Source: Candidatus Cloacimonadota bacterium (GTDB lineage Bacteria > Cloacimonadota > Cloacimonadia > Cloacimonadales > TCS61). Taken from it: DNA of 36,716 bases. The translations under genes and the position numbers were made by a program. The notes beneath the pieces were generated by a model. It saw only the letters and a list, made by a program, of their open reading frames with translations. It was not told the origin of the DNA and did not search any database. This document shows, piece by piece, positions 6,132 through 29,591 of the stretch (the stretch's first letter is position 1; each line of letters begins with the position of its first letter). Location: positions 1-36,716 of the forward strand of contig JAIPGP010000031.1 of assembly GCA_021735645.1 (NCBI GenBank), given 5' to 3'.

Positions 6132-8371
6132 TATTTTAATAATACCATTCTATGGTTGATAATTCTACCTTCTGTTTTCAGAGAGAAGTAGTAGATACCG
6201 CTGGGCTGTGAGGTTGCATTCCAGGTCATCTGATGGTTTCCGGCAGCTAATTGGGCATTTACCAGAGTTTCTATAAATTGTCCTTTGACATTATAGATAT
6301 TCAATTGCACCTGGGCAGATTGAGGCAGATTGAAAGCAATAGTGGTTTCCGGATTGAAAGGATTAGGATAATTTGCTGCCCTGGTATAGATGTCAGAAAT
6401 AGCATCCTGGTTAGTGCTAACAGGTTCATAGGTGAAATCAGAGGAGATCAATTCAGATTCTGCATTTGTATAAACGGCACTTACAGCAGCAGTATAAGAA
6501 TTTCCCGCAATCAGGTTATTCAGTTGGTAAAACAGCTCAGTAGTATAATCCAGGGGGATTTGCAGATCATCCAGATAGACATTGAAGCCTGTGAGATCAC
6601 GTCCAGGTGAAGCGGGTAATTCCCATTCCATAAGTGCATCCACAGGATTAACCGTCAGATTGTAAGGAGGGAAGGGAAATTCAATGATCTCAACAACCAC
6701 AGAATTGGATGGACCGGAAATACCTTCTTCATAAACTGCTTTAAGATAATATTCATAAGTGATATATTCCCAGACATAGTCACCGAATTCGCGTGTACCG
6801 GCATCATTGATCTCAGCCAGCAGTTCATTGTTTCTATAGAGCTCAAAACCGGTTAAAAAGCGGTCATCAGGCATTTCCCAATGCAGAAAAATTGTATACA
6901 ATTCTGCTTCAGCTGTTAAGTTGACGGGGGCAGGCAGGACAGGTCCCTGTGTTCCGATTGAGCCATCTTCATTATATCTCTGGGCATAAATACCATTTGT
7001 GCCACTACCCCAGGCAATGATAAAGCCATCATCGGGGACAAAGCCATTATCCTGATAGATGATATCAGCGGTATCAGTGTGCATCTTGGTAGTCTGCATA
7101 TCAGAAACTATCAATACCTCGTCCCAGACGTTTTCACCTTCGGGATCAACTCTTTGCGCCAGTATCCGTTCATTATTAAAATTGCCCCAGGGATAAGTAG
7201 AATAAGAAACCACAACATCATCTCCAAAAGGTCTGAGGGCAATAATAGTACCCCCATTAGGCTGAATAGGAGAAATGTTTACTCCGGAACTATTATAAAG
7301 CAGTTCTCCATCCGAATTGATCTTTTGCCCAAAGATACCGGAATTATTCTGATTAGCATCAGTTTCTTCCCAGTATACATAGATATTTTCGTCTAGAGGC
7401 TGATAGATAGTTTGGGGGTAATACTGGTTATTTGCGCCATGATCACCTACCTGAATACCGTCCTCAAACAAAGCAGTTCCATCGGAGAAAATATGCTGGA
7501 CATAAGCGCGGCTGATATTTTCACTATTACGGTCATCATGCCAGGCGATTACTGCTCCTCCTGAGCCATCAGGAGCCCAGGAGAAAATTTGATTCCAGGC
7601 AGAAATGCCGGAAGCGTTTGTGACTACAGCGGGAGAATCCCAGACCGGGTTTCCGTTAAAATTATATTTCTGAATATAGACAAAACGGTCGGGAGCCCAG
7701 TAGGGACCTGAATCCACAAAATATTTCATCAGGAAATTATCAGGGTTGCCATCATTATCGGCAGCCATAAGCTGGGGCCAGGAGCAGGTCTCGGGTTCAG
7801 AGATCGTAATAGGAATTTCCCAGTTTTGGGAACCTGCCGGCGAAATACTTCTGGCAATTACAGAAGTATCATCTGCCCAGGCAAAAATACAATTATTATT
7901 TGCAGTAACGGTAACCTTTGGTGCTGCATTAAAACCTCCATTAGAGAGATTAATACCGTCCGCTCCCCAGGCAAATTCACCTTCAGGTGTAATCTTATAA
8001 CCAAAGATATCAAGCTGTTCCTCACCTTCGCGGATGTCGTTAAATGCCATGATCGCATTCCCATCATGGTCTATTGTCATATCCCAGTCCGTAAGCCAGC
8101 TCATCTGGGTATTATCACTCACCAGAATACCATTTTCGTCCCAGACAATGTTACCATCTGCGTCTATATATTGCAACCGCATATTATAATTGCCTGTGGC
8201 ATTACTCCACCAGCCGATATAGCAACTGCCATCCGGATTTTGAGCAATTTTAGGAATTGTCTGATCTCCTGCCAGACTTGATATTTGATTATTAAATTCG
8301 GGGTTTTCGCTCCAATCTGCCTGCATCAGCGCAAAACATAATACTAATCCAATAAAAATTAATCTTCTCAT
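6131..8371 (-). CDS. Secreted propeller-like/FnIII protein with C-terminal sorting domain
   Basis: This 746-residue protein begins with a signal peptide (MRRLIFIGLVLCFALMQADW). Residues about 25-480 hold repeated blocks in which a W-x-D or A-W-x-D-D/R turn alternates with D-G-N/E and Y-x-Q-K/R-Y/I strands (W-H-D-D-R, Y-x-Q-R-Y). That pattern suggests a beta-propeller, but the fold is inferred. One or two fibronectin type III-like domains follow (about 485-655). The C-terminal ~80 residues start at YPNPFNPETTI, contain IYNVKG and SGIYYF, and form the FlgD-like/type IX sorting domain. No catalytic motif was recognised, so a binding or surface role is only a guess. The ATG has AGGAG six bases upstream. 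It is the last gene of the minus-strand operon, 18 bp after the EnvC-like gene. Confidence 0.85.
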   Translation of the reverse strand: MRRLIFIGLVLCFALMQADWSENPEFNNQISSLAGDQTIPKIAQNPDGSCYIGWWSNATGNYNMRLQYIDADGNIVWDENGILVSDNTQMSWLTDWDMTIDHDGNAIMAFNDIREGEEQLDIFGYKITPEGEFAWGADGINLSNGGFNAAPKVTVTANNNCIFAWADDTSVIARSISPAGSQNWEIPITISEPETCSWPQLMAADNDGNPDNFLMKYFVDSGPYWAPDRFVYIQKYNFNGNPVWDSPAVVTNASGISAWNQIFSWAPDGSGGAVIAWHDDRNSENISRAYVQHIFSDGTALFEDGIQVGDHGANNQYYPQTIYQPLDENIYVYWEETDANQNNSGIFGQKINSDGELLYNSSGVNISPIQPNGGTIIALRPFGDDVVVSYSTYPWGNFNNERILAQRVDPEGENVWDEVLIVSDMQTTKMHTDTADIIYQDNGFVPDDGFIIAWGSGTNGIYAQRYNEDGSIGTQGPVLPAPVNLTAEAELYTIFLHWEMPDDRFLTGFELYRNNELLAEINDAGTREFGDYVWEYITYEYYLKAVYEEGISGPSNSVVVEIIEFPFPPYNLTVNPVDALMEWELPASPGRDLTGFNVYLDDLQIPLDYTTELFYQLNNLIAGNSYTAAVSAVYTNAESELISSDFTYEPVSTNQDAISDIYTRAANYPNPFNPETTIAFNLPQSAQVQLNIYNVKGQFIETLVNAQLAAGNHQMTWNATSQPSGIYYFSLKTEGRIINHRMVLLK

Positions 8372-8389
8372 AAATTACTCCTTACTGAC

Positions 8390-9529
8390 TTAAAATTCCA
8401 GATATTCCAGGGGATTAACTGCTCTGCCATCTTTACGTATTTCAAAATGCAGGCAGGGTTCATCCACCAGACCTGACTGCCCGGATTCTGCCAGGACAGT
8501 CCCTCTTTTAACAGTATCACCCAGCGAAACCAGTAGATGTTCGTTGTGACTGTAAACCGTATAGAATCCATTCTGGTGATCGATAATCACCACTCTGCCA
8601 CTCCCCCCGCTTCTACCGGCATAAACAACTACGCCCTTATCAACACTTTTAACTTCAGTACCTATTTTCACCGCTACATCTATACCGTCATTGTGCAAAG
8701 TAAGGCGTTTATTTTCTAACTCATAATCTCCAAAGCTGCGGATTATCTCACCCTGCACGGGCCAGATCAATTTATCATAAGTAAATTTATAGGAATAAAC
8801 CGGTCGATAGGAAGTTTTATTCTGCAGTCTGGTTATGAGATCATTCATGGCAGACTGAGCATCTTCGAGTTCCTTTTTACGTGTAACTGCCTGCCGGTAT
8901 TCCTCATCCAGAGAACTAACCTCTCTCTCCAGGATCACCAGTTCTTTCTGGTAGCTGCTTTTCTTTTTTTTAGAGACTATTTTGGTCCATTGCACGTCTT
9001 TAAAATATTTCTCGTCTTTCTTTTCTTTATTTTCCAGAACCTGTCTGCTGCATTCCAGACTGCTGATATCTGCATTCACTTCAGTCAATTCCTCTCCGGC
9101 AGCTTCCAGGGTAGTTGCCAGTATCCAGGCATCAGCAGCCAGATAAACATCATTCATATAATGGGAGATTACCAAAGCGTTACCCAGTTCATGGGCAGAA
9201 TTATACAATTCCTGCTCAGTCTGTTTTTTAGAATTCAGGTTCATAGTAGTATTTTTCAATCTTTCGCGGGTTTTATCCCATTCTTCCTGAGCTTTACACT
9301 GATTAGTTTCCAGTTCACAGATATTATCTTCCAGTTTCTTTTTTTTTGCCAGCATTTCGAGGGTTTGAGCTTCTTTAGCTGCTTTCTGAGCCTGATTCTG
9401 CTCAATGAGAGTTTCCATATCCTGCAATTCACGGTTCAGCTTTTCCAATTCCTGCTGTTTATCGGATAATTCATCAGCACAGAGAAAAATCACACTAAAC
9501 AGCAAAAAAATAACTAATATCCGGGACAT
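8390..9529 (-). CDS. EnvC/NlpD-like coiled-coil protein with M23 (LytM) domain
   Basis: This periplasmic protein has a signal peptide (MSRILVIFLLFSVIFLC), a long charged coiled coil (about 20-235) and a C-terminal LytM/M23 domain (about 265-379). In the family, EnvC-type proteins activate cell-wall amidases, while true M23 enzymes cut peptide cross-links. The zinc-ligand His and Asp are present as H279-N-D-G-I-D284, one residue further apart than the usual H-x3-D. Y-S-H328 is kept. The final HxH motif reads C359-L-H361, so the residue used as catalytic His in LytM is Cys. This suggests an activator, not proved. I chose the ATG at 9529 (weak GTAGG five bases upstream). A GTG at 9535, abutting the previous stop, would add two residues. 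It is fourth in the five-gene operon. Confidence 0.88.
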   Translation of the reverse strand: MSRILVIFLLFSVIFLCADELSDKQQELEKLNRELQDMETLIEQNQAQKAAKEAQTLEMLAKKKKLEDNICELETNQCKAQEEWDKTRERLKNTTMNLNSKKQTEQELYNSAHELGNALVISHYMNDVYLAADAWILATTLEAAGEELTEVNADISSLECSRQVLENKEKKDEKYFKDVQWTKIVSKKKKSSYQKELVILEREVSSLDEEYRQAVTRKKELEDAQSAMNDLITRLQNKTSYRPVYSYKFTYDKLIWPVQGEIIRSFGDYELENKRLTLHNDGIDVAVKIGTEVKSVDKGVVVYAGRSGGSGRVVIIDHQNGFYTVYSHNEHLLVSLGDTVKRGTVLAESGQSGLVDEPCLHFEIRKDGRAVNPLEYLEF

Positions 9530-9535
9530 TTGCAC

Positions 9536-12500
9536 CTACTTAAGTACAATAAATTTCCGCTGGTTGCGATAAATCCCTGTATCCATGGCTAAAAAATATA
9601 CACCGCTGCTTACCGGCTTTCCATTTTCATTATCCATCTGCCAGCAGATATTATGCAGACCTTGATCATATACCTGATTAGTCAAGTTCTTTACTTTCTG
9701 TCCCCGAATATTATAAACATCTATCTTCACCAGTTGATTACCGGAGACGGCAAAACTAACCTGCAATTCAGGTGAACGCTCCCTGCTGACTACTACAGGA
9801 TTAGGTGAAACAGGGTATAGTTCTGTTACCTGAGGTACTTCGCCACTTTGCAGATCAGGTTCCAGATATCTGCCATTAACTTTCAGATGGATTTCCTGGG
9901 TTTTTATCTGTCTCATCAGGTTTAGTTCCGCGATCTGTTTGCCAGTTGATATACCTTCAGCAGAGGCAATAGCCAGTTTATAGCTTTCCTGCTGGTTATC
10001 AGCCCAAAGCAGGTTTTCGCCCTTTATAACTGCGTCTGCTACAACAGGCGGCAGTTCCAGATCAAGACTGTAAACTTCTCCGCAGGAATAAAAGCTGAGA
10101 TTATTCCCTGACTGGCAAATAGTGACATCACCAGCCGGAGCGATCTGGTATTCACGAGATTCCACTGGAAATACTTCAATAATACTGATGCAATACTGCA
10201 GGATAAGAGCGGCATCATAGCTATCTATTGTCTGGTTTCCGTCCACATTTGCTGTGATCAGGCGCCACTCTGCCCAGGGCAAAGGTGCTGCAATGGGTTC
10301 AATGCCCACACTGTACTGGAGAACAATTGCGCCATCGTAAGCTTCCACTCCCCCATCTTTATCTACATTGCCATAATCCCACACCCGCGGATACATTACT
10401 TTGACAGTGCCATTTATCTGCCCGGATTCATCGGGTTCAAAGCTGAATTCCTGTTCCTGATCAAGATCATAAATCTCAGAATCCACTTCCAGCCAGGCGT
10501 AGTGCTCCAGACTGATTTGAGCTAATTGAAAACTTAGTTCCAGATTATTATCCGGATTGCCCCGGGCAATAAAATCAAATTCCCGCAAACCTTCATCATC
10601 AAAAGGTTCTGAGAATAGAGTATGAAAACTGGGAACAGGATAGCTCATACCCAGAGCTGATAAATATATTTGACATCCCTGATCCTGCGGTTTGGCCGGT
10701 AAAGCAGGAAAATCATATAACACATTAAAATCATCACTGCTGTTTCCCACTGCTCCCAGCACAACTTCAGAATTATCACCTGACTGGCTGAGCATAACTC
10801 CTATCTGCCAGTCTGGCACAACAGTGGGTAAAGGTATGCCATTACTGTATGGAATGAATTCTACGTTGATGGCAAAGCTTGAATCTCGGTAATTATATAA
10901 ATAAAATGATTCCCCTGCCTCCACTTCCTGCACAGGCATAAAGAGACTATCTCTATAGGCATATACCAGCTTTGATAAACTGCCGGCGCTCACCATCTGC
11001 CGGAAACTGTAATTCCAGGTAAAATAGTGAAAAATAAGACCATCTATTTCCAAAGGTGCGGGGTGTGGATTGGCTAACAGGTTCCAGCCGGGTAGCAGCG
11101 TCATTGTGAAGCTGCTGCCAGAAAGCTCACCTGAACCAGTGAAATTGCTTTCTGCCGGAAGATCAAGCCAGTACCCTTTGCCAAATTGTAGCATATCTGC
11201 CTGCGAATATTCACTACCTGTCCATTCATACAATTCTGCCCCAGCCCCAAAAACATCTTCCACTTCATACTCATCTTCCAGCCATACACCGGCAATATTG
11301 TGCCATCCTGCTGCCAGATCATAAGTATATTCCAGAGGCACTATGCCAATCTCATAATCAGATACTGACATTTGAGGAATTCCTGTCAGGCTTTCAAAAT
11401 ATACCCGCAGTTCAGCAGCATGAATAGTGATATCTTCCGGTGCATTCCATACAATAGCCTCAGGAATATCTGTCAGGTTGTCTATGATCATTATCTGCTG
11501 CTCACCATTATCAAGCAGCACAGAAGCAGTATTTACTAACTGGGGAAATAATAACTGCAAGGGAGTAACTACTTCATCACCTGCCTGATAAATGGTATCA
11601 GGCAGGTTGGTGAAATCTATATCCGGCTGCACATAACCCACATGAAGCTGCAGCGAAGCACTGCCCGTACCACTTAGAATCACCTCATCGGTAAATTCAT
11701 CATTCAGGTTATACAGGTCACCACTGTAATTATCCTCCAGATAAATATTAGTATAATCAGGGAATTCAGCATCCAGCTCAATTTGCAGAGCATCACCTTC
11801 TTCAAATTGTGACCGCACTTCAATAGCCCAGGTTTTCCAGGTTTGCGACATGCTGTAAAATGCTTTTATATCACGTTTATACCAGTTTTGAGACCATTCA
11901 GGGTGATAGAGGCGAGTATATAAGTCCTCTCCCAGATATGGTCCCGAAAGTATCTCAAAATATTCATCTAAGCCATCTGTAGCATATTGATTAGTGGCAA
12001 AAGCAATTGAATCCCGTATTTCACCATTAATAAATTTTAGATTATAGACTTGACTGGAAATTGTCTCCACTTCTTCAGCAAAAAAATATTCTGTACCATA
12101 AATATTTTCTGCACTTAGTTTATATCTATACCAGCCATTTGATCCCGCCTGCTCATCTACATACTCAAAATCCTGACCATTGATATTTGTACTTACCAGT
12201 GACGGTTCTGTTTCCCAGCTGGCATGTAATGCCCAATTGCTATACGGCATAGTGCAGCGATACACATTAAATCCCTGATTGCCGGACTGATGCTCTGCTT
12301 CCCAGAATAACTGACTGTAATCATCTATACCAATTCCACTCAATTCACCTATCTCGGCGGGAGAGGTATATATCTCAACCTGCTCCGAATAGCTGACATT
12401 ATCATTATAATCAAGACTGGCTATCTGGAAATAATAGAGTGTATTGATCTCCAGATCTCCCACATTCAATTCTTCTGCTAAAGGACTTGCCAGTTCCAGG

Positions 12501-13963
12501 TCGGTCAATCTATCATAATAAGGAGACACTTCGGGGTCGATTGGCGCAGTATCCACATATAATCTATAACTGAAGAAATCATAACAGGGCTGAGGCTGCC
12601 AGTGAATGTCCACAGAACTCTCTGATAATTCTTCAAACCACATACTGTCCACTGCCACAGGCTCCTGTCCATCATCAAGGGCTATCACGTCCGGCAATAT
12701 AATACCCAGGTCTGTCACCCAGCGACTATACCAGCTTCGAACTTTGTCATAGCGGGTTTGTGCATTCCATTCATCATTTTCATAATCAAATCCGTAAAAA
12801 GTATCTAACTGATAGGTATTCTGCAAAAACTCATTGGGCAATTCGTCCATCTCCATGTGAAAAAACGGGTCATAGACATCATAGGTATTCCAGTCTTCTA
12901 TGGCAAATTCCCGGAAAGCTCCACCCACACCCGGCAGGTCTATTTCATCATTCACCACCAGCATCGTATCATCATAGACAAAATGAAAGGGATACAGCGA
13001 ATAATTCACCGCATAATAATCATTAATATAGCAATCATAATAATTGCCATATTCATTTGCCGGTATCATCAAATAATCACCTTGATTGATCAAGTCATAG
13101 TGCAGCCCGGAAAGGTCTCTGGTCGGCAAATTGGGATTTGATTGTACTACTGAAACCTGACAGTTTGCTCTATCTCCATGCCTGTTCCAGTCATAACTGT
13201 GTATCTGGGCAGAAAATTCCCGTCGGAAGTTTTCCCGAATATAGTCTGTAGCCTGACGGCAGGCTACTATCTGAGGATGTTCATCATTGCGGGTGGGATC
13301 ACTGATAGATTTACCGTTGTTATAAATCCCCACTTCCGTCCATTCCACCTCCCTGCCAGCCCCGCTGACAAACCAGAACATGGCATCCCATGCCAGCAGG
13401 CAATCAAGAGATATTGCCACGGTAATATAGTCATCATTAGGATGGGGAGTAGAAATGATCACGGGCTGTGCTGCTGCCGGATTATATATATATAAACCCC
13501 AGCCATAGCCAAATGCGCCACTCTCATCATCATATTCCGCTTCTGTGCCATTATTGTCAAAATACTGCTCGTCAATATTCTCTCGCAGCATCTTAAAATT
13601 CCTGCCACTTTCCAGGTCAGTGAAATCCACTACTTCATAAGGAAAACTGAAGCTGTCTATCAAAGCTTCCGCCGCTTCCAGCTCTCCGCTTATAAATGCC
13701 GCATATACTGCTCCCCATTGCTGCAATTCCAGCTCATCCGGTATCCGAAATGCCCCAAATCCCTCAGTCTGCTCTTCCCAGGGAGCATAAACATTAAAGT
13801 TAACTCGGGCTATACCTTCAGCAATATGACTCACCCAGTTATCATAACTACACCCAGGTGCTGCACCATATAGGAAATTTCTTAAGCTGTCTGTCTCCAC
13901 AGTAACTGCTTGTGAATAACAGAAAAGGCTTAAAACCAGAAATACTAAAATTATTTTCATCAT
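9536..13963 (-). CDS. Large secreted protein with FnIII, dockerin and sorting domains
   Basis: This 1475-residue protein starts MMKIILVFLVLSLFCYSQA, a clear signal peptide. The open frame extends 23 codons further up, but that part lies inside the preceding gene and would bury the signal. The N-terminal ~450 residues contain polar clusters suggestive of a hydrolase (H-P-N-D-D, R-N-D-E-H-P, H-S-Y-D-W and R-H-G-D-R), but I cannot assign a family. FnIII-like domains follow (about 455-650), then beta-rich segments. Two dockerin type I repeats sit at about 1198-1216 and 1238-1256, each with D-x-D/N-x-D/N loops and the YDAALILQY-type helix. A beta-rich segment and a sorting domain (about 1383-1475, with VSPNP, IDVYNIRGQ and SSGVYFL) end it. 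The start ATG overlaps the upstream TGA by one base, so translation is probably coupled. Confidence 0.85.
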   Translation of the reverse strand: MMKIILVFLVLSLFCYSQAVTVETDSLRNFLYGAAPGCSYDNWVSHIAEGIARVNFNVYAPWEEQTEGFGAFRIPDELELQQWGAVYAAFISGELEAAEALIDSFSFPYEVVDFTDLESGRNFKMLRENIDEQYFDNNGTEAEYDDESGAFGYGWGLYIYNPAAAQPVIISTPHPNDDYITVAISLDCLLAWDAMFWFVSGAGREVEWTEVGIYNNGKSISDPTRNDEHPQIVACRQATDYIRENFRREFSAQIHSYDWNRHGDRANCQVSVVQSNPNLPTRDLSGLHYDLINQGDYLMIPANEYGNYYDCYINDYYAVNYSLYPFHFVYDDTMLVVNDEIDLPGVGGAFREFAIEDWNTYDVYDPFFHMEMDELPNEFLQNTYQLDTFYGFDYENDEWNAQTRYDKVRSWYSRWVTDLGIILPDVIALDDGQEPVAVDSMWFEELSESSVDIHWQPQPCYDFFSYRLYVDTAPIDPEVSPYYDRLTDLELASPLAEELNVGDLEINTLYYFQIASLDYNDNVSYSEQVEIYTSPAEIGELSGIGIDDYSQLFWEAEHQSGNQGFNVYRCTMPYSNWALHASWETEPSLVSTNINGQDFEYVDEQAGSNGWYRYKLSAENIYGTEYFFAEEVETISSQVYNLKFINGEIRDSIAFATNQYATDGLDEYFEILSGPYLGEDLYTRLYHPEWSQNWYKRDIKAFYSMSQTWKTWAIEVRSQFEEGDALQIELDAEFPDYTNIYLEDNYSGDLYNLNDEFTDEVILSGTGSASLQLHVGYVQPDIDFTNLPDTIYQAGDEVVTPLQLLFPQLVNTASVLLDNGEQQIMIIDNLTDIPEAIVWNAPEDITIHAAELRVYFESLTGIPQMSVSDYEIGIVPLEYTYDLAAGWHNIAGVWLEDEYEVEDVFGAGAELYEWTGSEYSQADMLQFGKGYWLDLPAESNFTGSGELSGSSFTMTLLPGWNLLANPHPAPLEIDGLIFHYFTWNYSFRQMVSAGSLSKLVYAYRDSLFMPVQEVEAGESFYLYNYRDSSFAINVEFIPYSNGIPLPTVVPDWQIGVMLSQSGDNSEVVLGAVGNSSDDFNVLYDFPALPAKPQDQGCQIYLSALGMSYPVPSFHTLFSEPFDDEGLREFDFIARGNPDNNLELSFQLAQISLEHYAWLEVDSEIYDLDQEQEFSFEPDESGQINGTVKVMYPRVWDYGNVDKDGGVEAYDGAIVLQYSVGIEPIAAPLPWAEWRLITANVDGNQTIDSYDAALILQYCISIIEVFPVESREYQIAPAGDVTICQSGNNLSFYSCGEVYSLDLELPPVVADAVIKGENLLWADNQQESYKLAIASAEGISTGKQIAELNLMRQIKTQEIHLKVNGRYLEPDLQSGEVPQVTELYPVSPNPVVVSRERSPELQVSFAVSGNQLVKIDVYNIRGQKVKNLTNQVYDQGLHNICWQMDNENGKPVSSGVYFLAMDTGIYRNQRKFIVLK

Positions 13964-15660
13964 CACTCGATCACGGCTGGACTGCCGGAATGTTCCGCTT
14001 CCTGAACTGCCACATTGCATTGACGCAGGCAATCACCCACTTTGCTGCCCGGCTGATATATTGTCCCGCCAAACAGTATCTCCAGCTTAATCCGTTTATC
14101 ATCCCGGAAAAACTCAGTCTGGCTGAGCATTTCATCCAATTTGGCTATCAATTGCCTGATGCCAATTGATCCTGTTGTGGGTAATATGAGCAAAAACACC
14201 TCTTCCGCCCATCTCCCTAAGTGGTCTTGTCTTCTTAAAATTGAACGCAGCTTTGAGCCTACTTTATTAATCAGATAATCTGTAAAATTGTTCCCAAAAG
14301 CATTTCTTAAACCGGACATGTTATTCAGCTTCAGAAACATCAAACCGAATTCCTGTTTCTCCCGGTCTGACCTGGCACTTTCATAATCCAGATACTCAAT
14401 CAAAGTCTCGCGGTTTGGCAGTCCTGTCAACCGGTCTGTCCTCTGCATCTGCTCATATTGATTACGGGCATCATTTAATTCGCCAGCCAGTGACTGGGTC
14501 TGCAGGTTTTCATTCTCAAGCTGCTGCCTCAGAAGCTCATTAGCTTCCTGAAGCTCTGCTAATTCTTTGCTCTTATCTTCGTGCTTATTCTGATAATTCT
14601 CTGCCAGTTCAATTAAACCACTTTCAATTTCTTTATTAAAAGTGTCTTTCTCAAATATATCACGCCGGAACTTTTTTTGTCGAATCGCCTCAATGATTTT
14701 TAAGATCAATTCTTCCCGGTCATGCTGAGAACTCTTAAAAAAGAAATAGACAATTAAATAGATTACTACTGCCAGAACAATAAATCCCAGTAATGCCCTG
14801 AATAAAAGATTAGAAGATATTTGCCGTATCATATCATTATCAAAGTAAACCTTGATCATTACCTGATTTAAACCCGTACTCCCCTTCAAGAGCTCGGGGA
14901 TGATCACATATTCATAACCATTTAATATCTGACTCTCTATGCTGCTGTAAATCTGTAGCTTTTCCTGCTCTTCATACCCTCTTTCTATATCTGCTACCGA
15001 ATAATATTCATCTCCTTGCCTGAAGACAAGATCAATGGTCTTCACCATCAATATACTCTCTGCTAAATTTTCAAAATATCCACCAAATAAAAATTCCGCA
15101 AAAGACTGCGAATTATTATCCTCCAGATATTTCAGCATATCCACGGCATAGATGATCAATTTATTCGAGGCAGAATCTATTAACCAGGCAGATTTATAAA
15201 TAGTATCACTATCTGTCAGCAAGCCTGCCCGGTCTATTATCACATCATCCGCTGCCAAACCCAGGGCAATCATATCATAATAGCCCGGTATAATATCCCT
15301 TATGTTAGCCCCTTTCAGCGTCATATCCGTAGATGTTTTCACATTACCTTCTAAATCAGTAATAATGATTAAATCCAAGCCGAATTTGATGGCAGTCTCA
15401 TCTAAATCTGAAATCTGCTCCGTATCTTTCAACAGGCTTGTCTTAATTTCCAGAAGTTTTTCATTGATCATCTCTTCATTGCTCCGAAGCAGCATATCAT
15501 AGTCTTCCCCAATCTGACGCACCCTGTAAACAGAATTTATCTTGATCTCATCTATCTGTTCCCGCAAATGCACTAATGCCCGATAGAATACCAGGATAGT
15601 CGATACTGTGATCAATAATAGCATTACCAGATGAAATGCCAGATTGTGTTTTCTTTTCAC
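13963..15660 (-). CDS. Membrane sensor-like protein with degenerate GGDEF domain
   Basis: The 565-residue protein has an N-terminal membrane segment (about 8-28), an extracytoplasmic region of ~240 residues (sensor-like, possibly Cache/dCache), a second membrane segment (about 280-305) and a coiled coil (about 345-405). A C-terminal GGDEF-family domain starts at D-R-L-T-G-L-P-N-R (409-417). Active diguanylate cyclases make c-di-GMP using a D-x-D metal site and GG(D/E)EF. Here the first is replaced around K444-L-N and the second reads W484-A-E-E-V488-F. Cyclase activity is therefore unlikely, and signalling by binding or by protein contact is inferred. The start is GTG at 15660 behind a strong GGAGGAGGG site. 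No ATG fits as well. It lies 12 bp after the aminopeptidase gene and overlaps the next gene by one base. Confidence 0.85.
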   Translation of the reverse strand: MKRKHNLAFHLVMLLLITVSTILVFYRALVHLREQIDEIKINSVYRVRQIGEDYDMLLRSNEEMINEKLLEIKTSLLKDTEQISDLDETAIKFGLDLIIITDLEGNVKTSTDMTLKGANIRDIIPGYYDMIALGLAADDVIIDRAGLLTDSDTIYKSAWLIDSASNKLIIYAVDMLKYLEDNNSQSFAEFLFGGYFENLAESILMVKTIDLVFRQGDEYYSVADIERGYEEQEKLQIYSSIESQILNGYEYVIIPELLKGSTGLNQVMIKVYFDNDMIRQISSNLLFRALLGFIVLAVVIYLIVYFFFKSSQHDREELILKIIEAIRQKKFRRDIFEKDTFNKEIESGLIELAENYQNKHEDKSKELAELQEANELLRQQLENENLQTQSLAGELNDARNQYEQMQRTDRLTGLPNRETLIEYLDYESARSDREKQEFGLMFLKLNNMSGLRNAFGNNFTDYLINKVGSKLRSILRRQDHLGRWAEEVFLLILPTTGSIGIRQLIAKLDEMLSQTEFFRDDKRIKLEILFGGTIYQPGSKVGDCLRQCNVAVQEAEHSGSPAVIE

Positions 15661-15672
15661 TTTGCCCTCCTC

Positions 15673-18552
15673 CTATTTAATAATCAAAGTCTTACTGACT
15701 GCCCGAATGTTTCCAGAACTCAACATCATAAAATATATACCACTGCTTAATTCACCTTGAAATTCCCACACCTGCTCACCTTTGCTTTGCCGGATTATTA
15801 TCTCATCCAGCTTTTGTCCCCGCAGATTATAAATACCCAATACTCCCTGCTTCTGTTCTCCCAGATCATAACTGTATTTCAATCCGGTCCGTCCCTTTGT
15901 CATATTAAAAGGATTCGGATAGGTTTGCAAACTAATATTACCAGCCGGTATTTCGGCTTCTTCGTTGCCATTCCCTTCAAATTCGGCTAAGATCGCTTCC
16001 ATAAATACCCCGGCTTCGGTTTCATCGCAAAAATACAAGGGGAATCCCAAAAAAAAACAATTCCCGCCATAACTGCTCCGCACTGCGCAGGCCTGACCTG
16101 TATATTCGCTGCCGGTAATTCCTTCATAGGCAAATACTGCAGCATCACCCGCCGGATATATTGCCACATATGGCAAATGCCCATTAAAGGCTGCCGGAAT
16201 CTTGGCTGCGTCAATATTCAGAGCATTATAAATCTCGGAACTGGCACCCACAAACTCCTGACCTGCTGCCAGTATATACTCTGAACTACCAGTAAATTGC
16301 TCCAGAAATTCTGCACTCATATCATCTGTCGTCTTCCAGCCTGATACCAGTAAATTTCCTCCGGCATATACATAACTGCCCAGCACAGCTTCATTATCAC
16401 CAAAATGCTTCTGGCTGATGTCTTCATCATGCCAGATCACCGTGCTGTAGTTCCTGATCAGCTCTGTAGATATTGCCCCTTCACTGGCATAATCATAGTT
16501 CGTAACTTCCAGACCCGTTAGCGCTGCATAAAATTCATCTACCATAGCATCTGTAGGACTGCCCGGATTGCCATTGCCATCCATGGTCTCATCTATCACA
16601 AGAACGCCCTGATCCAGGGGCCATTCCTCAATCGTTACGGCATACACATTACTTGCTTCACTCTCAAATTCTTCATCTATCACAGCCACCACTTTATAAT
16701 AATACGTCGTCCCCACTTCCAGACCGTTATCCACATACATCTCATTTTCTATCAGATCACCACTTACCCATAAATAAGGACCCGCTTCATTCTCTGACCG
16801 GCTCAGCCTGTAGCCATCCACGTTCAGCTCATCTTCCCAGACTTGCGACCAGTATAAAGCAGCTCCGTCTTCAAAAGGATATACCCCTGTGATTTCGAGA
16901 CTATGATGAGTGACTCCCCTGTCCAGAAGCCAGCTATCCGGGTCAAATGCTACTTCATCTATCATTATGTCATTTAATAACCTCTCCGTCATCGCTATTC
17001 CGGCACTGGCATCCACCAGTAAACTATCCTCTGCTCCGCTCTCATAAGTTACCCATACCGGAGCTTTTCCCTCAAACACCGTATTACTGGTGCTGGTAGT
17101 CTTCACATAAGTCCGCAGCTTAGGTATATTATCATAAGGATTCACAAACCAGGCATATTCATAACGCGGTATTCCGCTGCCAAAAATCCACTGCTCAAAA
17201 AACTGCTCATAATCCTCGCCTGTCACATCTTCCACTACTGCCTGAAACTCACTTGTCACGGCATTGCCGTGCATATAAGTGGCAAAATACTGCTGCAGTA
17301 TCTCAAAAAACTGCTCATCACCTGCCTGCATCCGCAACATGTGCAGCACTGACCCTGCTTTCTCATAAACCGGCGGTGTAAAATAATTGTAAAAAGTGGG
17401 ATTAAAGATCGTGTAATTGCTCCCACCTGACCATGATAGATAATAACCCTGAATATCATTCGCTACATAGTCTAACATCGCCTGATATCCAGATTGCTCT
17501 TCTGCCCATAATGCCTCAGAATACACCGCAAAACCCTCAGACAGCCAGACATGTGGAAAATCTAAAAATGCTACGCAGTCACCAAACCATTGATGAGCCA
17601 GTTCATGAGCAAATACCATCTCATAGGTATGATTGCCATTCACCAGATAATTCGCCAGCGTCACCATCGTCTGATGCTCCATGCCCCCGAATATTGTCAT
17701 CGGCACTACGCAATTGCCAAATTTTTCAAAGGGATACATACCATATATTTCCGAAAAATATTCTATCATCCAGGGCATATTCTCAAAATCTTCCTGGGCA
17801 TTCGCCAGTTGACTCGGGATACAAAAGTGCTGTATCAGTAAATCCTCACCATTCGGCAAAGTGCAATCCTGCTCAAATTCCACAAAATTGGAAGCATGGA
17901 AGCATGCCAGATAGGTTGTCATCGGATTCTCACCTATCCAGTGCGTGGTATTAGTCCCATCCCCGTTATTTTCTATACCTGTCCTGACTCCGTTCGCTGC
18001 CACCAGCCAGTCATCCCGAATCGTGATATGCAGATCAACTATTGCCTTATCCCAGGGATGATCATAGCAGGGCCACCAGTAACGGCTCGCATCCGGGTCA
18101 GAAACAGTAAATACATAATTATTATTCCAGAACATCCCACCACCATACCCCGGACTGCTCGTGGGATTGCCATGATAACTCACACTGGTAGTAAACTCCG
18201 CCCCTGTCTCCATCTCACCTAATTGAATGGTCACATATCCGCAGGACTCTTCAAATTCCGCAATCTCTCCATTCACACTCACTTCACTGACAGTTAAACC
18301 TTCTATTTCATAACCAATCTCGGTGATCATCTCGGTTGCTGTCACATGTGCTATTACTATCCCGTCTATAAAATGATTGACGTTATCCACATCAAGATAC
18401 AATTCATATCTTGTTACATCAAATCCATGGGCAGAATCTGCCCGTACAGTCTCAAATAATGGTATATCTTCTGCTCTCCATTCCTGTTGCGGATATCCAA
18501 AGATCAATAATGGTAATATTATCAAAACAAATAACAGTATTTTTTTATTCAT
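15673..18552 (-). CDS. Secreted M1-family aminopeptidase with sorting domain
   Basis: This predicted zinc aminopeptidase has 959 residues. A signal peptide (MNKKILLFVLIILPLLIFG) precedes an M1 domain (about 30-560). The zinc site is H316-E-L-A-H320 with E339 in WLSEGF, the standard HEXXH-x18-E spacing. The substrate-binding GAMEN-type motif reads GGMEH (289-293), a variation seen by eye. A FnIII-like domain (about 565-660), a beta/alpha domain resembling class I glutamine-amidotransferase-like folds without a recognisable catalytic Cys (about 670-870), and a C-terminal sorting domain (about 880-959, starting at TYPNPFN) follow. It probably trims peptides outside the cell, with the tail handling export. 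It is the first gene of the five-gene minus-strand operon. GGGAG precedes the ATG. Confidence 0.92.
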   Translation of the reverse strand: MNKKILLFVLIILPLLIFGYPQQEWRAEDIPLFETVRADSAHGFDVTRYELYLDVDNVNHFIDGIVIAHVTATEMITEIGYEIEGLTVSEVSVNGEIAEFEESCGYVTIQLGEMETGAEFTTSVSYHGNPTSSPGYGGGMFWNNNYVFTVSDPDASRYWWPCYDHPWDKAIVDLHITIRDDWLVAANGVRTGIENNGDGTNTTHWIGENPMTTYLACFHASNFVEFEQDCTLPNGEDLLIQHFCIPSQLANAQEDFENMPWMIEYFSEIYGMYPFEKFGNCVVPMTIFGGMEHQTMVTLANYLVNGNHTYEMVFAHELAHQWFGDCVAFLDFPHVWLSEGFAVYSEALWAEEQSGYQAMLDYVANDIQGYYLSWSGGSNYTIFNPTFYNYFTPPVYEKAGSVLHMLRMQAGDEQFFEILQQYFATYMHGNAVTSEFQAVVEDVTGEDYEQFFEQWIFGSGIPRYEYAWFVNPYDNIPKLRTYVKTTSTSNTVFEGKAPVWVTYESGAEDSLLVDASAGIAMTERLLNDIMIDEVAFDPDSWLLDRGVTHHSLEITGVYPFEDGAALYWSQVWEDELNVDGYRLSRSENEAGPYLWVSGDLIENEMYVDNGLEVGTTYYYKVVAVIDEEFESEASNVYAVTIEEWPLDQGVLVIDETMDGNGNPGSPTDAMVDEFYAALTGLEVTNYDYASEGAISTELIRNYSTVIWHDEDISQKHFGDNEAVLGSYVYAGGNLLVSGWKTTDDMSAEFLEQFTGSSEYILAAGQEFVGASSEIYNALNIDAAKIPAAFNGHLPYVAIYPAGDAAVFAYEGITGSEYTGQACAVRSSYGGNCFFLGFPLYFCDETEAGVFMEAILAEFEGNGNEEAEIPAGNISLQTYPNPFNMTKGRTGLKYSYDLGEQKQGVLGIYNLRGQKLDEIIIRQSKGEQVWEFQGELSSGIYFMMLSSGNIRAVSKTLIIK

Positions 18553-18575
18553 ATTTTACTCCCAGTATATTTCCC

Positions 18576-18605
18576 ATATAGTCAATTTCCCTGTCTTTCC
18601 GTCAA
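18576..18605 (-). promoter_or_regulatory. Possible promoter of the aminopeptidase operon
   Basis: On the minus strand TTGACG (18605-18600) and CTATAT (18581-18576) are 18 bp apart, so transcription would begin about 15-20 nt before the ATG at 18552. The match is fair, not perfect. Confidence 0.35.
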
Positions 18606-18766
18606 GTTAAAACACAAATTCACGTTGTTTACCCGGTTTACAATGTTAACTGATTTCGAGCAAAGATGCCCAATTTTCTTGATTGGTATCTCCCTGTTTT
18701 ATTAAAAAGTTGCTATAGATATCTCAATAACTTATAGATATTTAGGCGTATTTTACAGCAAATTTT

Positions 18767-18973
18767 TCATTCTCATTAACACCAGGTTTTTAACCTGGTG
18801 AGAAGCGAAAAAGAATATGGCTTGAGTGGCTTCAGCCACTTCTCATAATAATAATTTATTCCCGTCTGGATTTTATTATAACGAACTCAAATACAAAGGG
18901 AAGCCACTGAAGTGACTATACATCGTTCGTTCATCATTAACCTCTAAATAAATTTAGGGGTTAATGAGAATGA
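18767..18973. mobile_element. MITE-like 207-bp element with 14-bp terminal inverted repeats
   Basis: The ends are TCATTCTCATTAAC (18767-18780) and its exact reverse complement GTTAATGAGAATGA (18960-18973). Three internal hairpins are visible. CACCAGGTT/AACCTGGTG lies at 18780-18800, AGTGGCT/AGCCACT at 18825-18840, and a 15-bp arm pair with one G-T wobble at 18935-18966. An imperfect AGCCACTGAAGTGACT occurs at 18902-18917. There is no transposase and no open frame, as expected of a non-autonomous element. No clear target-site duplication is seen. Confidence 0.6.
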
Positions 18974-19007
18974 TCCATTGATGCTATTGGAAACCTAAAA
19001 TGAAATT

Positions 19008-19024
19008 AATTCCGGGGGGATGCC
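19008..19024 (+). promoter_or_regulatory. Shared G-rich upstream motif, copy 1
   Basis: AATTCCGGGGGGATGCC occurs here and, identically, at 27336-27352. Both copies lie 70-100 bp upstream of a plus-strand start codon, and both are followed 15-19 bp later by TTGACA and then an A/G and AATA. It may be an operator or part of a dispersed repeat. Confidence 0.5.
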
Positions 19025-19039
19025 CGATTTATTTGATTC

Positions 19040-19068
19040 TTGACAAAATATCCAGAATAAAAAATTAT
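19040..19068 (+). promoter_or_regulatory. Possible promoter of the pRiA4b ORF-3-like gene
   Basis: TTGACA at 19040-19045 is a perfect -35 hexamer. The best -10 candidate at 17-bp spacing is AATTAT (19063-19068), 4 of 6 bases. The start codon is at 19098. Confidence 0.35.
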
Positions 19069-19097
19069 TTTTTAAAATAAAATTAAAGGAAATCCTG

Positions 19098-19703
19098 ATG
19101 GCAGAAAAAATTAAGTATGAACCTAAATTACTGCTGCTTCGCATCAAACTGGAATACATTAGACCATTTATCGTTCGCAAGGTGGTTGTCCGCAATACTA
19201 TCTCTTTTGCTGATCTTCATGACATTATCCAGATTACGATGGGCTGGGAAAATGAGCATCTTTACAGCTTCTCTAAAGGTAACATTTACATTGATGATGA
19301 TCATGGTGATGATGAAAAAGATGATTTTTTTAACCTTTTCCCTTCCCGTAATAAATATCTCTCTGCTTCTAATAATCCTATTGCCAGATTCCTCAATGAG
19401 CCTAAAGATAAAGTTAAATATGAATATGATTTCGGAGATTCCTGGCTGCACCAGATTTCTGTCAGCAAGGTATTAGAAAATGACCCCCGCCTTATTCACC
19501 CAGTCTGCAAAAAAGCTTCCCGAGCCTGTCCCCCGGAGGATTGCGGCGGTGTTTACGGCTATTACCGCATTCTGAATGCCCTGAATTCCGAGGAAAAAGA
19601 TGAAGATGATGAATCATACCTTGAATGGGTCGGTGAAGATTATAATCCGGAATTTACCGATATTGATATAATTAACAGCTGGCTGAGAAAAATCAAAATG
19701 TAA
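19098..19703 (+). CDS. Plasmid pRiA4b ORF-3-like protein
   Basis: This 201-residue protein has the hallmarks of the pRiA4b ORF-3-like family. These are an N-terminal L-R-I-K-L-x-x-I-R-P-x-I-x-R beta/alpha start (14-27), a helix ending I-T-M-G-W (46-50), the Y-E-Y-D-F-G-D-S-W motif (108-116) and the CPPEDCGG motif (144-151). The end is acidic. The family is widespread on plasmids, mobile elements and chromosomes. Its biochemical role is not established, so none is claimed. AAAGGA stands about eight bases before the ATG. It is a single gene with a possible TTGACA promoter, 124 bp from the MITE-like element. It converges on the lapA-like gene. A short TCTCCA/TGGAGA hairpin lies in the 3' gap without a T run. 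Confidence 0.85.
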   Translation: MAEKIKYEPKLLLLRIKLEYIRPFIVRKVVVRNTISFADLHDIIQITMGWENEHLYSFSKGNIYIDDDHGDDEKDDFFNLFPSRNKYLSASNNPIARFLNEPKDKVKYEYDFGDSWLHQISVSKVLENDPRLIHPVCKKASRACPPEDCGGVYGYYRILNALNSEEKDEDDESYLEWVGEDYNPEFTDIDIINSWLRKIKM

Positions 19704-19848
19704 TCCAGCTAAGACTCTCCAGTGGAGAATAAAAGCGGAACTGTCAAATGGTGATGATAGACCGGACTGAAATGACCATATCCCCTTCACATTTAGCAAT
19801 CTTGGGACTGAGCGGACATAGCGAACGATACAGTGATAGTAATTGCCT

Positions 19849-20067
19849 TTAATCTATTTCAACTCCTGCAGGTTTATTATTTTTTCCATACCTTCCCAGC
19901 AGAAAACCAATGATAAAGCCTACCAGCAGTGTGACGGGAAAAAGTATTATTCGGGACATACTGATCTTCCAGAAAAGCAGGCGTAGTTCCACAACCTGAG
20001 TATTTTGAAAAAGAACGATTAAAAACAGAGCAATCAGCACGATAATAATGATACTTTTAGCTTTCAT
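19849..20067 (-). CDS. Small LapA-domain membrane protein
   Basis: This 72-residue protein has two hydrophobic segments (about 4-22 and 38-58) around V-V-E-L-R-L-L-F-W, and a G-R-Y/basic C-terminus. That is the pattern of the LapA/DUF1049 domain, whose E. coli member works with LapB in regulating lipopolysaccharide synthesis. Residues 20-35 (FQNTQVVELRLLFWKI) are the typical FxxNxxxVxLxFLxW core. AGGAGG stands before the ATG. It begins 8 bp after tamB, so it is the last gene of the tamA-tamB operon. Co-occurrence fits an envelope-assembly role, but direct function in LPS control is inferred from the family only. Confidence 0.8.
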   Translation of the reverse strand: MKAKSIIIIVLIALFLIVLFQNTQVVELRLLFWKISMSRIILFPVTLLVGFIIGFLLGRYGKNNKPAGVEID

Positions 20068-27352: not shown

Positions 27353-27449
27353 AGGCAAATAAATAAAATATTTGACAGAATAGTAGTTACATATAGACAA
27401 TTGCAACATAATATTAAACTAAGTTATATGGGTTATGAAGGAGCAGACT

Positions 27450-29591
27450 ATGAAAAAGAATATATTTAAGCAGATCAGGAATATAGTAAGATATAAAAGC
27501 GAATTTATACTTTCGCGAAATCCCGCTGTTCAGATAGCCATGCTGGCAATAGTAGCATTATTTATTACTATGGTGGCAACTTTAGTTCTCAAGCTTACCC
27601 AGATCATGCCGACAGAATGGAAACTGCTTCCTCTTCCAAAACTTGTCTGGAATAATCTTATGCGGGTAATGGACCAGGGCACCATGGTCAATGATGAAGG
27701 TTCCTGGCTTTTTTTACTCATAATGCTCACGACTACGGTCTTTGGTCTAATTATTATCAGTACCCTGATCGGTATTATCACTGAAGGGTTTGATTCAAAA
27801 GTGGAAGAACTGAATAAAGGCAGATCAGCCGTCATCGAAAAGGGACATTTTATCATTTTGGGCTGGTCAGCAAAAATATATCATATCATCAACCAGTTGA
27901 TTATCGGTAACATTCTTTCCGATACCGGCCTCGGAAAGCCCTGTATCGTAATTCTGGCAGATAAAGACAAGGTAGAAATGGAGGATGCTATTTACGATAA
28001 TTGCCGGAATTCCAGGAAAGCCAAAATAATCTGCCGGTCCGGAAACCCGATTATCTTAGAAAAACTGGGAAAACTCTCTCTCGATAAGGCAGATACGATC
28101 CTGATACTTGCTTCCGAGAAAAAGAATCCTGATACTTTTGTCTTTAAAATTGTGCTGGCAATTATCAGTTTATGCTCTAAAAAAGATAAACATAAAACAA
28201 CGTGTAAAACCGTTATAGCTGAAATCTTTGAAAAGAAAAATGAAGCCCTCCTGACTGATCAAATTAATAAATGCCAGATGAAAAATGAAATTAACTTCAT
28301 CGCGCTTAATTCCAGTCAGATCATCTCGGAAATTATTGCCCAAACCTGTATTCAGCAGAAACTCTCCCGAGTATATTCAGAATTGTTAAAATTCGATAAA
28401 AATGACAATGAAATTTATTTTGAAAAAGTAGCCAAATTCCGCGGTATTAATGAATCAGATACTTTCCAGGACTTAATGTTCAAGTTTGAAAATTCCTGCC
28501 TGATCGGTTATATGAAAGCAAACTCGAAGGATCAGGATAATAAAATTGTCATTAACCCCTTATCTGAGCAATATGGAAATGAAAAACTGCTTCCAGAAGA
28601 TGAATTGATCTTTATAGCCAGACAAAGAAAGGAAATTAAATTTATAGTGAAACATCATGACAAGCAAGGAAAAAAAACCAGTCCCGATATCGTCAGAAAA
28701 CAGAAATTACCCATATCCAATACTATCATTTTTGGCTTCAATAAAAAAATTTTCAGAATAATTGATGAACTGGAAAATTATATTAATGAAGGCTCTTCGG
28801 TTAAGATCATTGCCAAAGTTACTGAAGAAAATGAGAATGAATACAAGGATTACAAGGAATCTATTAAAGAGAAGGGTGAAAGGAAACAGACCCTGAAGTT
28901 AATTAAAATTGCAGAACAAATTATCGATCAGAATATCATTGAAAAAGAGATATTCAATATTACAAAAGATAAAGATGTTAAGACTGCTATTCGTAAAAAA
29001 ATTAAATGCGATAATATCATTATCTTGAATTATGGTAATTTGAATAGTCATAATGCCAATCAGGAAGTCGCCTTTTTAGAGGAAATTGATGCCATCACAA
29101 TTAAGTCATTGCTCAATATCAGGAAGTATTTTGAACTTAATAAGCAATTTAAAGAAGATGGGTTCTCAATAGTCACTGAGATGAAATTTGCCCATAATAA
29201 AGATGTGATCCCTTCCGGTGATGAAGATGAATTTATCATCAGTGACGAAATTATCAGTTCTATCATCGCCCAGACTGTTCTAAATAAAAACCTGGGTAAA
29301 GTATATCAGGATATTTTACTGAAATCTAATAAATGTGAAATATATCTGAAAAATGCTGGCTGCTATGCACCCTTAGGGACAGAAACAACATTTAATGACC
29401 TGATCCGCTCAGGAATCGAATTTAATGAAATTGTAATAGGCTATATCTTTGCAAAAAAAGGTAATCCGGAACTTGAAGAAGATGAAATCCATTTAAATCC
29501 TGACAGGCAACTGCTTGTCACATTTCAAAAGTATGATAAAGTGATCACTATCGCCAATGACTTCACTTTCTATCACCCTCAGAGTAAATAA
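27450..29591 (+). CDS. CASTOR/POLLUX-like ion channel with two RCK-type domains
   Basis: This 713-residue protein has two hydrophobic segments (about 28-52 and 85-110) flanking a pore-like stretch. After them comes D-S-K-V-E-E-L-N-K-G-R-S-A-V-I-E, then G-H-F-I-I-L-G-W-S, which closely resembles the linker and first nucleotide-binding strand of plant CASTOR/POLLUX channels and their bacterial relatives. A second Rossmann-like repeat begins near residue 423 (T-I-I-F-G-F). In plants these are calcium-regulated nuclear cation channels. Ion choice here is unknown. The frame is open from an ATG at 27435, but AAGGAG (27438-27443) lies six bases before the ATG at 27450, which is the better start. It heads a plus-strand group with the next three genes, right after the hairpin array. 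Confidence 0.85.
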   Translation: MKKNIFKQIRNIVRYKSEFILSRNPAVQIAMLAIVALFITMVATLVLKLTQIMPTEWKLLPLPKLVWNNLMRVMDQGTMVNDEGSWLFLLIMLTTTVFGLIIISTLIGIITEGFDSKVEELNKGRSAVIEKGHFIILGWSAKIYHIINQLIIGNILSDTGLGKPCIVILADKDKVEMEDAIYDNCRNSRKAKIICRSGNPIILEKLGKLSLDKADTILILASEKKNPDTFVFKIVLAIISLCSKKDKHKTTCKTVIAEIFEKKNEALLTDQINKCQMKNEINFIALNSSQIISEIIAQTCIQQKLSRVYSELLKFDKNDNEIYFEKVAKFRGINESDTFQDLMFKFENSCLIGYMKANSKDQDNKIVINPLSEQYGNEKLLPEDELIFIARQRKEIKFIVKHHDKQGKKTSPDIVRKQKLPISNTIIFGFNKKIFRIIDELENYINEGSSVKIIAKVTEENENEYKDYKESIKEKGERKQTLKLIKIAEQIIDQNIIEKEIFNITKDKDVKTAIRKKIKCDNIIILNYGNLNSHNANQEVAFLEEIDAITIKSLLNIRKYFELNKQFKEDGFSIVTEMKFAHNKDVIPSGDEDEFIISDEIISSIIAQTVLNKNLGKVYQDILLKSNKCEIYLKNAGCYAPLGTETTFNDLIRSGIEFNEIVIGYIFAKKGNPELEEDEIHLNPDRQLLVTFQKYDKVITIANDFTFYHPQSK

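Follow-up and report, generated by a model that had tools for sequence, protein, structure and literature searches.

A GGDEF domain with a dead active site and an intact I-site (RxxD, nine residues ahead of the signature) is already known as a receptor for cyclic di-GMP (c-di-GMP), in proteins of the SgmT, PopA, YdaK and CdgI type. YdaK of Bacillus subtilis is a membrane protein with the degenerate signature SDERI; it is encoded within the operon that it serves, and its intact RxxD (R202, D205) is reported to be needed in vivo (PMC5422440). CdgI of Escherichia coli, a stand-alone degenerate GGDEF protein whose I-site is intact, is reported to bind c-di-GMP (PMC5635695), as is SgmT of Myxococcus xanthus (PMC3509222). 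The membrane receptors LapD and DvhD are described as controlling a periplasmic protease from the inside out, DvhD having a dCache domain (PMC13090378). A new case is considered here, found in a 36,716-nucleotide stretch of DNA from a Candidatus (Ca.) Cloacimonadota bacterium (assembly GCA_021735645.1, contig JAIPGP010000031.1; the whole stretch is called the window). The gene at 13963-15660, on the minus strand, encodes a 565-residue membrane protein ending in a degenerate GGDEF domain, and the reading that we favor, at a probability of a little under 0.6, is that this protein serves as a c-di-GMP receptor of the YdaK, CdgI and SgmT kind, membrane-bound and non-catalytic, which acts on its operon partners or together with them.

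A conserved loss of the active site

The open reading frame (ORF) had been called in a preliminary description that gave no strand, and it proved to be real: a GTG start at 15660 is preceded by a ribosome-binding sequence, GGAGG, and the stop lies at 13963-13965. In its C-terminal part, residues 408-559 match PF00990 in Pfam with a score of 88 bits (cut-off, 23.8), and with support from the Pfam match, an AlphaFold2 (AF2) model and VIA alignment the degenerate GGDEF domain was placed at residues 408-565 (13966..14439). As that description had noted, the N-terminal segment D-x-L-T-G-L-x-N-R is intact (DRLTGLPNR), and K-L-N stands where D-x-D is expected, which puts K444 (14329..14331) at the metal-binding Asp position. 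Its reading of the signature as W-A-E-E-V was right as to degeneracy and one residue early in register: when GRWAEEVFLLILP is aligned to GRWGGEEFILVFP of the intact cyclase in the same genome, A-E-E-V-F (residues 485-489, 14194..14208) takes the place of G-G-E-E-F. R452 replaces the guanine-contact Asn, and E556 the Lys of the C-terminal A-K-x-x-G motif, two losses that the preliminary description had not named. Where an active diguanylate cyclase would carry both GG(D/E)EF and the metal Asp, this domain thus has AEEVF and K444.

Orthologues were found in four of 124 genomes of the phylum, the window's own included, all within the 40 genomes of the family, and their hosts belong to Ca. Stygibacter and one other genus of Cloacimonadota. 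The signatures read AEEVF, SDEEF, SDEEF and AENEY. In PleD numbering, anchored on the GGEEF motif, D327, D329, N335, G368, G369 and the AKxxG Lys are absent from all four; the metal position is Lys in every one, position 335 is R, K, R and V, position 369 is Glu or Asp throughout, and the AKxxG Lys is always Glu, whereas D344 is kept in three. Since identical positions are gone in all four proteins, the loss of catalytic residues is not attributable to chance, and none of the orthologues found in the 124 phylum genomes has kept the motif intact. A recent local mutation, the explanation that intact orthologues would have implied, was rejected on that ground, and the earlier proposal of a non-catalytic GGDEF domain is well supported by the alignment.

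Beyond the phylum, a single-sequence scan of genome contigs returned no orthologue, and none appeared in a scan of viral contigs. An alignment scan of genome contigs returned three loci, in Ca. Stygibacter frigidus, in a Cloacimonadota metagenome-assembled genome and in Marinobacter; the Marinobacter GGDEF protein was not counted, its match covering the GGDEF part only. Nor was a locus in G043 counted, whose match to the sensor profile (E 4.8e-4) spans only the second transmembrane helix and the coiled coil.

Comparison of the orthologues indicates that the gene is under purifying selection. The ratio of nonsynonymous to synonymous substitution (dN/dS) in the GGDEF domain is 0.13 at a dS of 0.48 between G001 and G002, the one pair in which synonymous sites are not saturated (G002, of the same genus, is 67% complete, and absences in it count for little). 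In all six pairs the GGDEF part is better conserved than the sensor part (73% versus 58% between the window and G001), and conservation is higher still in the intact cyclases that these genomes encode, at 82% for that pair. The four frames contain no stop. Gene decay was rejected on the strength of the open frames and a dN/dS well below 1, and the explanation of which it forms one half, a cyclase that is still weakly active or a gene that is decaying, is very improbable. Variants with AGDEF or SGDEF can be active, as reported for VCA0965 and ECA3270 (PMC3974145), but these differ at the first Gly only, whereas all four orthologues have lost the metal Asp, both Gly, Asn335 and the Lys.

An I-site retained without catalysis

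The preliminary description did not mention the I-site, which is intact: R476-R-Q-D479 (14224..14235) precedes the signature by nine residues, A485 being R476 + 9, and RxxD is present at this distance in all four orthologues (RRQD in three, RTQD in one). The counterpart of the secondary I-site Arg, 31 residues beyond the first, is K507 (14140..14142), and this position is basic in all four (K, K, K and R). The spacing is that reported for SgmT, in which R763, G772 and R794 are arranged in the same way around a dead active site (PMC3509222). In combining a dead active site with an RxxD kept at this distance from the signature, the protein is like the known receptors. Lys at the secondary position is also the usual residue in intact domains, being found in 41 of 73 in the sample described next.

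To place these observations, 86 GGDEF domains, mostly from the family, were compared; the set is non-random, consisting of loci from searches, 40 chosen stretches and part of the low-scoring matches. It was reduced from 100 domains by dropping 14 (domains shorter than 140 residues; L061-L064 and L017, fragments cut off at contig ends; one false hit, in L020; and the Marinobacter row). Under a strict rule applied to the 100 domains, the intact class had held 67 with RxxD and 12 lacking it, and the class that was not intact 18 with RxxD and three lacking it, several of the extra "not intact" rows being truncated fragments; L133 (SGDEF) was reassigned to the intact class. After filtering, the active site is intact in 73 domains, with RxxD in 68 and absent in five (12 of 79 before the length filter), and dead in 13, with RxxD in 12 and absent in one. 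As five intact domains do without it, RxxD is not required for the fold or the motif. In the 13 degenerate domains R359 is kept in 12, and D362 and a basic residue at 390 in all, whereas substrate positions outside the class definition are retained less often, N335 being kept in three, D344 in seven and the Lys in two. R366 and F372 are each kept in 11, and T295, R316, G414 and D292 in all 13. On a tree of the domains, the degenerate-with-RxxD label changes four times, with at least three of the changes forced by well-supported forks, and one clade on a long stem (SH-aLRT 100) unites the window protein with its three orthologues. The recurrence of a dead active site with a kept RxxD within one family provides a set of natural test cases.

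Other members of the sample are recorded in their own right. A second degenerate family in related genera consists of PAS-GGDEF proteins of about 305 residues (L136 5973-6878, L137 277-1191, L138 2662-3576, L139 2941-3876 and L140 3838-4758); the active site is lost, the I-site RPFD is kept in 5 of 5, a gene for a HAD-like phosphatase adjoins, and three of the five stretches also encode, a few kb away, a larger GGDEF protein whose motif is intact. TPR-GGDEF-like proteins in L138 (9558-11306) and L102 have the broken signatures TGGSF and TSTKF with metal Asp and RxxD intact; they stand close to intact relatives on the tree, and this looks like a younger loss. Lys in place of the metal Asp (position 327, K444 in the window protein) occurs in seven of the 13 degenerate domains, in more than one lineage.

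A different use of the remodeled site, in which it would bind another nucleotide (metal-free GTP or guanosine tetraphosphate, with Lys replacing Mg2+) and the protein would be a nucleotide sensor resembling FimX, is improbable. The Lys recurs, in all four orthologues and across the degenerate domains just mentioned, in a way that appears repeated and not random, and a review describes the degenerate GGDEF domain of FimX as responding to GTP; however, the change of G369 to Glu or Asp and of the AKxxG Lys to Glu, fixed in all four orthologues, would place acidic residues at phosphate sites.

Several points weigh against a c-di-GMP receptor. Retention of RxxD is by itself weak evidence, because identical columns are common with four orthologues: 33 intact domains have 41 positions with conservation of 90% or more, and at 20 of these the residue is identical in every one of the four, R359, Q361 and D362 included. 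The motif may be structural, since R316, T295, D292 and G414 are retained just as fully in the degenerate domains. These 13 domains stem from about four lineages, and the family-wide comparison set is the non-random sample described above. With D344 kept in three of four orthologues, the old pocket may still bind something. Finally, each of the four genomes encodes an MshEN domain, which is another candidate c-di-GMP receptor. The receptor reading is favored over these reservations because a dead GGDEF domain with an intact I-site is a known receptor design, and because YdaK, LapD and DvhD provide precedents.

Domain architecture and structure models

From the N- to the C-terminus the protein consists of a transmembrane helix (residues 7-32, 15565..15642, by hydropathy), a dCache-like periplasmic domain (residues 36-277, 14830..15555), a second transmembrane helix (residues 284-310, 14731..14811, by hydropathy), a cytoplasmic helical and coiled-coil linker (residues 313-407, 14440..14724, from AF2 helices 275-327 and 346-407) and the GGDEF domain. 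The full-length AF2 model is weak, with a mean predicted local distance difference test (pLDDT) score of 57.9; the best part of the periplasmic domain reaches 84-87, and block means in the GGDEF part are 37-55. As the full-length model was too weak there, a domain-only GGDEF model was built from 22 sequences, with a mean pLDDT of 94.4. In VIA comparisons this model aligned with c-di-GMP-bound PleD at Z 25.2 (root-mean-square deviation (rmsd) 4.1, 175 residues aligned) and with c-di-GMP-bound DgcB at Z 24.9 (rmsd 1.9, 174 aligned), and its other matches include many GGDEF structures, active and inactive alike. The fold shared with the two c-di-GMP-bound structures is no proof that the modeled domain binds c-di-GMP.

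The periplasmic domain is probably a double Cache, as judged from VIA-align comparison of the low-confidence full-length model with Cache domains (Z about 9.5-12), in which one lobe aligned with 8py0 and both lobes with DctB (3by9) and 2p7j; the Pfam scan gave no Cache match in the protein. The DvhD structure 9rc2 is among the matches (Z 9.8, rmsd 4.7, 209 aligned).

A small c-di-GMP network

GGDEF domains number exactly two in each of the four genomes: that of an intact cyclase and that of the degenerate protein. The cyclase, inspected by eye, looks like a receiver-PAS-GGDEF protein and lies beside a GAF-HD-GYP gene. The HD-GYP family PF13487 has three or four matches per genome (one of the four in G001 is a contig-end fragment), no PilZ or EAL match was found in any of the four, and the single MshEN domain of each has a motif that looks normal by eye. 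It follows from this inventory that c-di-GMP is probably made and that few receptors are evident, the obvious candidates being the degenerate-GGDEF protein and the MshEN ATPase. A search for the c-di-GMP-I riboswitch gave no match in the four genomes; as it gave none in the control genomes either, this does not show that the riboswitch is absent. Should the protein be a receptor, c-di-GMP would be tied directly to surface enzymes in an uncultivated phylum with a small network. Within the literature searched, Cloacimonadota and c-di-GMP occur together in no paper, Cloacimonetes and GGDEF in one, which mentions the phylum once, and dockerin, GGDEF and c-di-GMP in one, on Fibrobacter.

A network of this size also makes pairing simple for a pseudo-cyclase that no longer needs c-di-GMP, and that would instead form heterodimers with the one active cyclase, or else an HD-GYP protein, and tune this partner from the membrane. 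CdgI is reported to pair strongly with other GGDEF domains in two-hybrid assays, but it binds c-di-GMP as well (PMC5635695), and neither the RxxD nor the basic residue at position 390, both kept in 4/4 orthologues, is required by such a model, which we regard as unlikely, though less so than the other alternatives.

The operon and its neighbors

The gene is the second of a five-gene block on the minus strand. It stands between a secreted M1 peptidase and a giant dockerin-like protein, a position between a secreted peptidase and a dockerin protein that the preliminary description had right, and an M23-type protein and a protein with a sorting tail complete the block. The M1 peptidase (15673..18552, minus strand) has a sorting tail of its own, and its gene ends 12 bp before the sensor gene. 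The first ATG of the giant secreted protein (9536..13963, minus strand), which has dockerin-like repeats and a sorting tail, overlaps the TGA of the sensor gene. The next gene (8390..9529, minus strand) encodes a coiled coil and an EnvC-like M23/LytM domain. The order M1 peptidase, sensor, giant protein is kept in all four loci as far as the contigs extend, and the M23 and sorting-tail genes come next in the three where this part is visible. The earlier label of a secretion-related operon is a loose one: the neighbors are secreted or envelope proteins, and Pfam matches revealed no gene for secretion machinery in the operon. When 8000-20000 was scanned for promoters and terminators, the counts were only slightly above those of shuffled sequences and were not used.

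"Dockerin-like" is a reading of the giant protein's repeats, for which Pfam gave no dockerin match up to E 0.1; Ca. Stygibacter is reported to have dockerin and cohesin proteins (PMC8542988). The final 280 residues of the giant protein are found again in 12 or more other places of the window's genome. Its N-terminal region is highly conserved, has no Pfam name, matches no PDB profile up to E 1, and is found across most of the family in homologues that lack the dockerin-like end. Next to eight homologues of the giant protein in other genera (L181-L188) no matching M1, sensor or M23 gene was seen among plus-strand ORFs within flanks of at most 1.5 kb, some shorter, the homologue itself not being listed for L181, L183 and L185.

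The expected M23/LytM motif is H-x-H. The M23 protein has C-L-H at this position in 3/3 relatives, and EnvC-type models are among its matches; for these reasons it may act as an activator and not as a peptidase, and the operon may hold two pseudo-enzymes. Elsewhere in the window, a protein with a Castor/Pollux-type ion channel domain is encoded at 27435-29591 on the plus strand, followed by a 192-residue ORF with no Pfam match.

The adjoining gene for a secreted M1 peptidase, present in all four loci, would suit an outside-in envelope sensor, in which the dCache domain reads an extracellular peptide or amino acid released by the peptidase, the pseudo-GGDEF domain only dimerizes and recruits a regulator, and RxxD is structural. 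Amino acids are described in a review as ligands of the dCache domains of SpdE and others. Such a sensor has no known output partner, and the pattern in the sample, RxxD kept in nearly every degenerate domain yet lost in some intact ones, speaks against a structural role; it is rather unlikely.

Proposed mechanism and comparison with known systems

For the c-di-GMP receptor, the following sequence of events may be envisaged. The dCache-like domain would face the envelope. In the pseudo-GGDEF domain, GTP turnover would have been lost through replacement of the metal Asp by Lys, of the GG loop by bulky or acidic residues and of the phosphate-contact Lys by Glu, and c-di-GMP would bind at the intact I-site, cross-linking two GGDEF domains or docking the domain onto a partner. 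The change would travel through the coiled coil and transmembrane helices, with signaling running either inside-out, toward envelope partners encoded in the operon, or outside-in, toward a partner in the cytoplasm. In a bold and improbable form of the inside-out version, the protein would control whether surface peptidases and dockerin proteins of Ca. Stygibacter are attached or released, in a putative cellulosome-like complex, possibly by way of the EnvC-like pseudo-M23 protein. The preliminary description had proposed a role distinct from c-di-GMP synthesis, and this agrees with the lost active site; the intact I-site, however, points to reception of c-di-GMP and not to a role outside c-di-GMP signaling.

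LapD and DvhD are membrane receptors with an envelope-side domain outside and a dead c-di-GMP enzyme inside (PMC13090378), a layout that the protein shares. They differ in that the dead domain is EAL in LapD and HD-GYP in DvhD, whereas it is GGDEF here. No protease of the LapG or DvhG type is among the operon's Pfam matches, and the operon co-encodes an M1 peptidase and an EnvC-like M23 protein. That a dead GGDEF domain with an I-site and a dCache domain provides inside-out control of surface enzymes, as a third, separately evolved architecture beside LapD and DvhD, is an improbable extension of the receptor reading. SgmT shares the dead active site and the RxxD, and has Arg 31 residues on, where three of the four orthologues have Lys; it is a cytoplasmic hybrid histidine kinase with a GAF domain, and CdgI shares the degenerate domain with its I-site as a stand-alone protein. 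YdaK, like the protein described here, is a membrane protein whose degenerate GGDEF domain (SDERI, against SDEEF in two of the orthologues) keeps its RxxD, and it too is encoded within an operon. It has four predicted transmembrane helices and is associated with exopolysaccharide genes, in contrast to the two helices, dCache-like domain and secreted peptidase and dockerin-like neighbors found here; YdaK is nevertheless the described system nearest in logic to the Cloacimonadota sensor.

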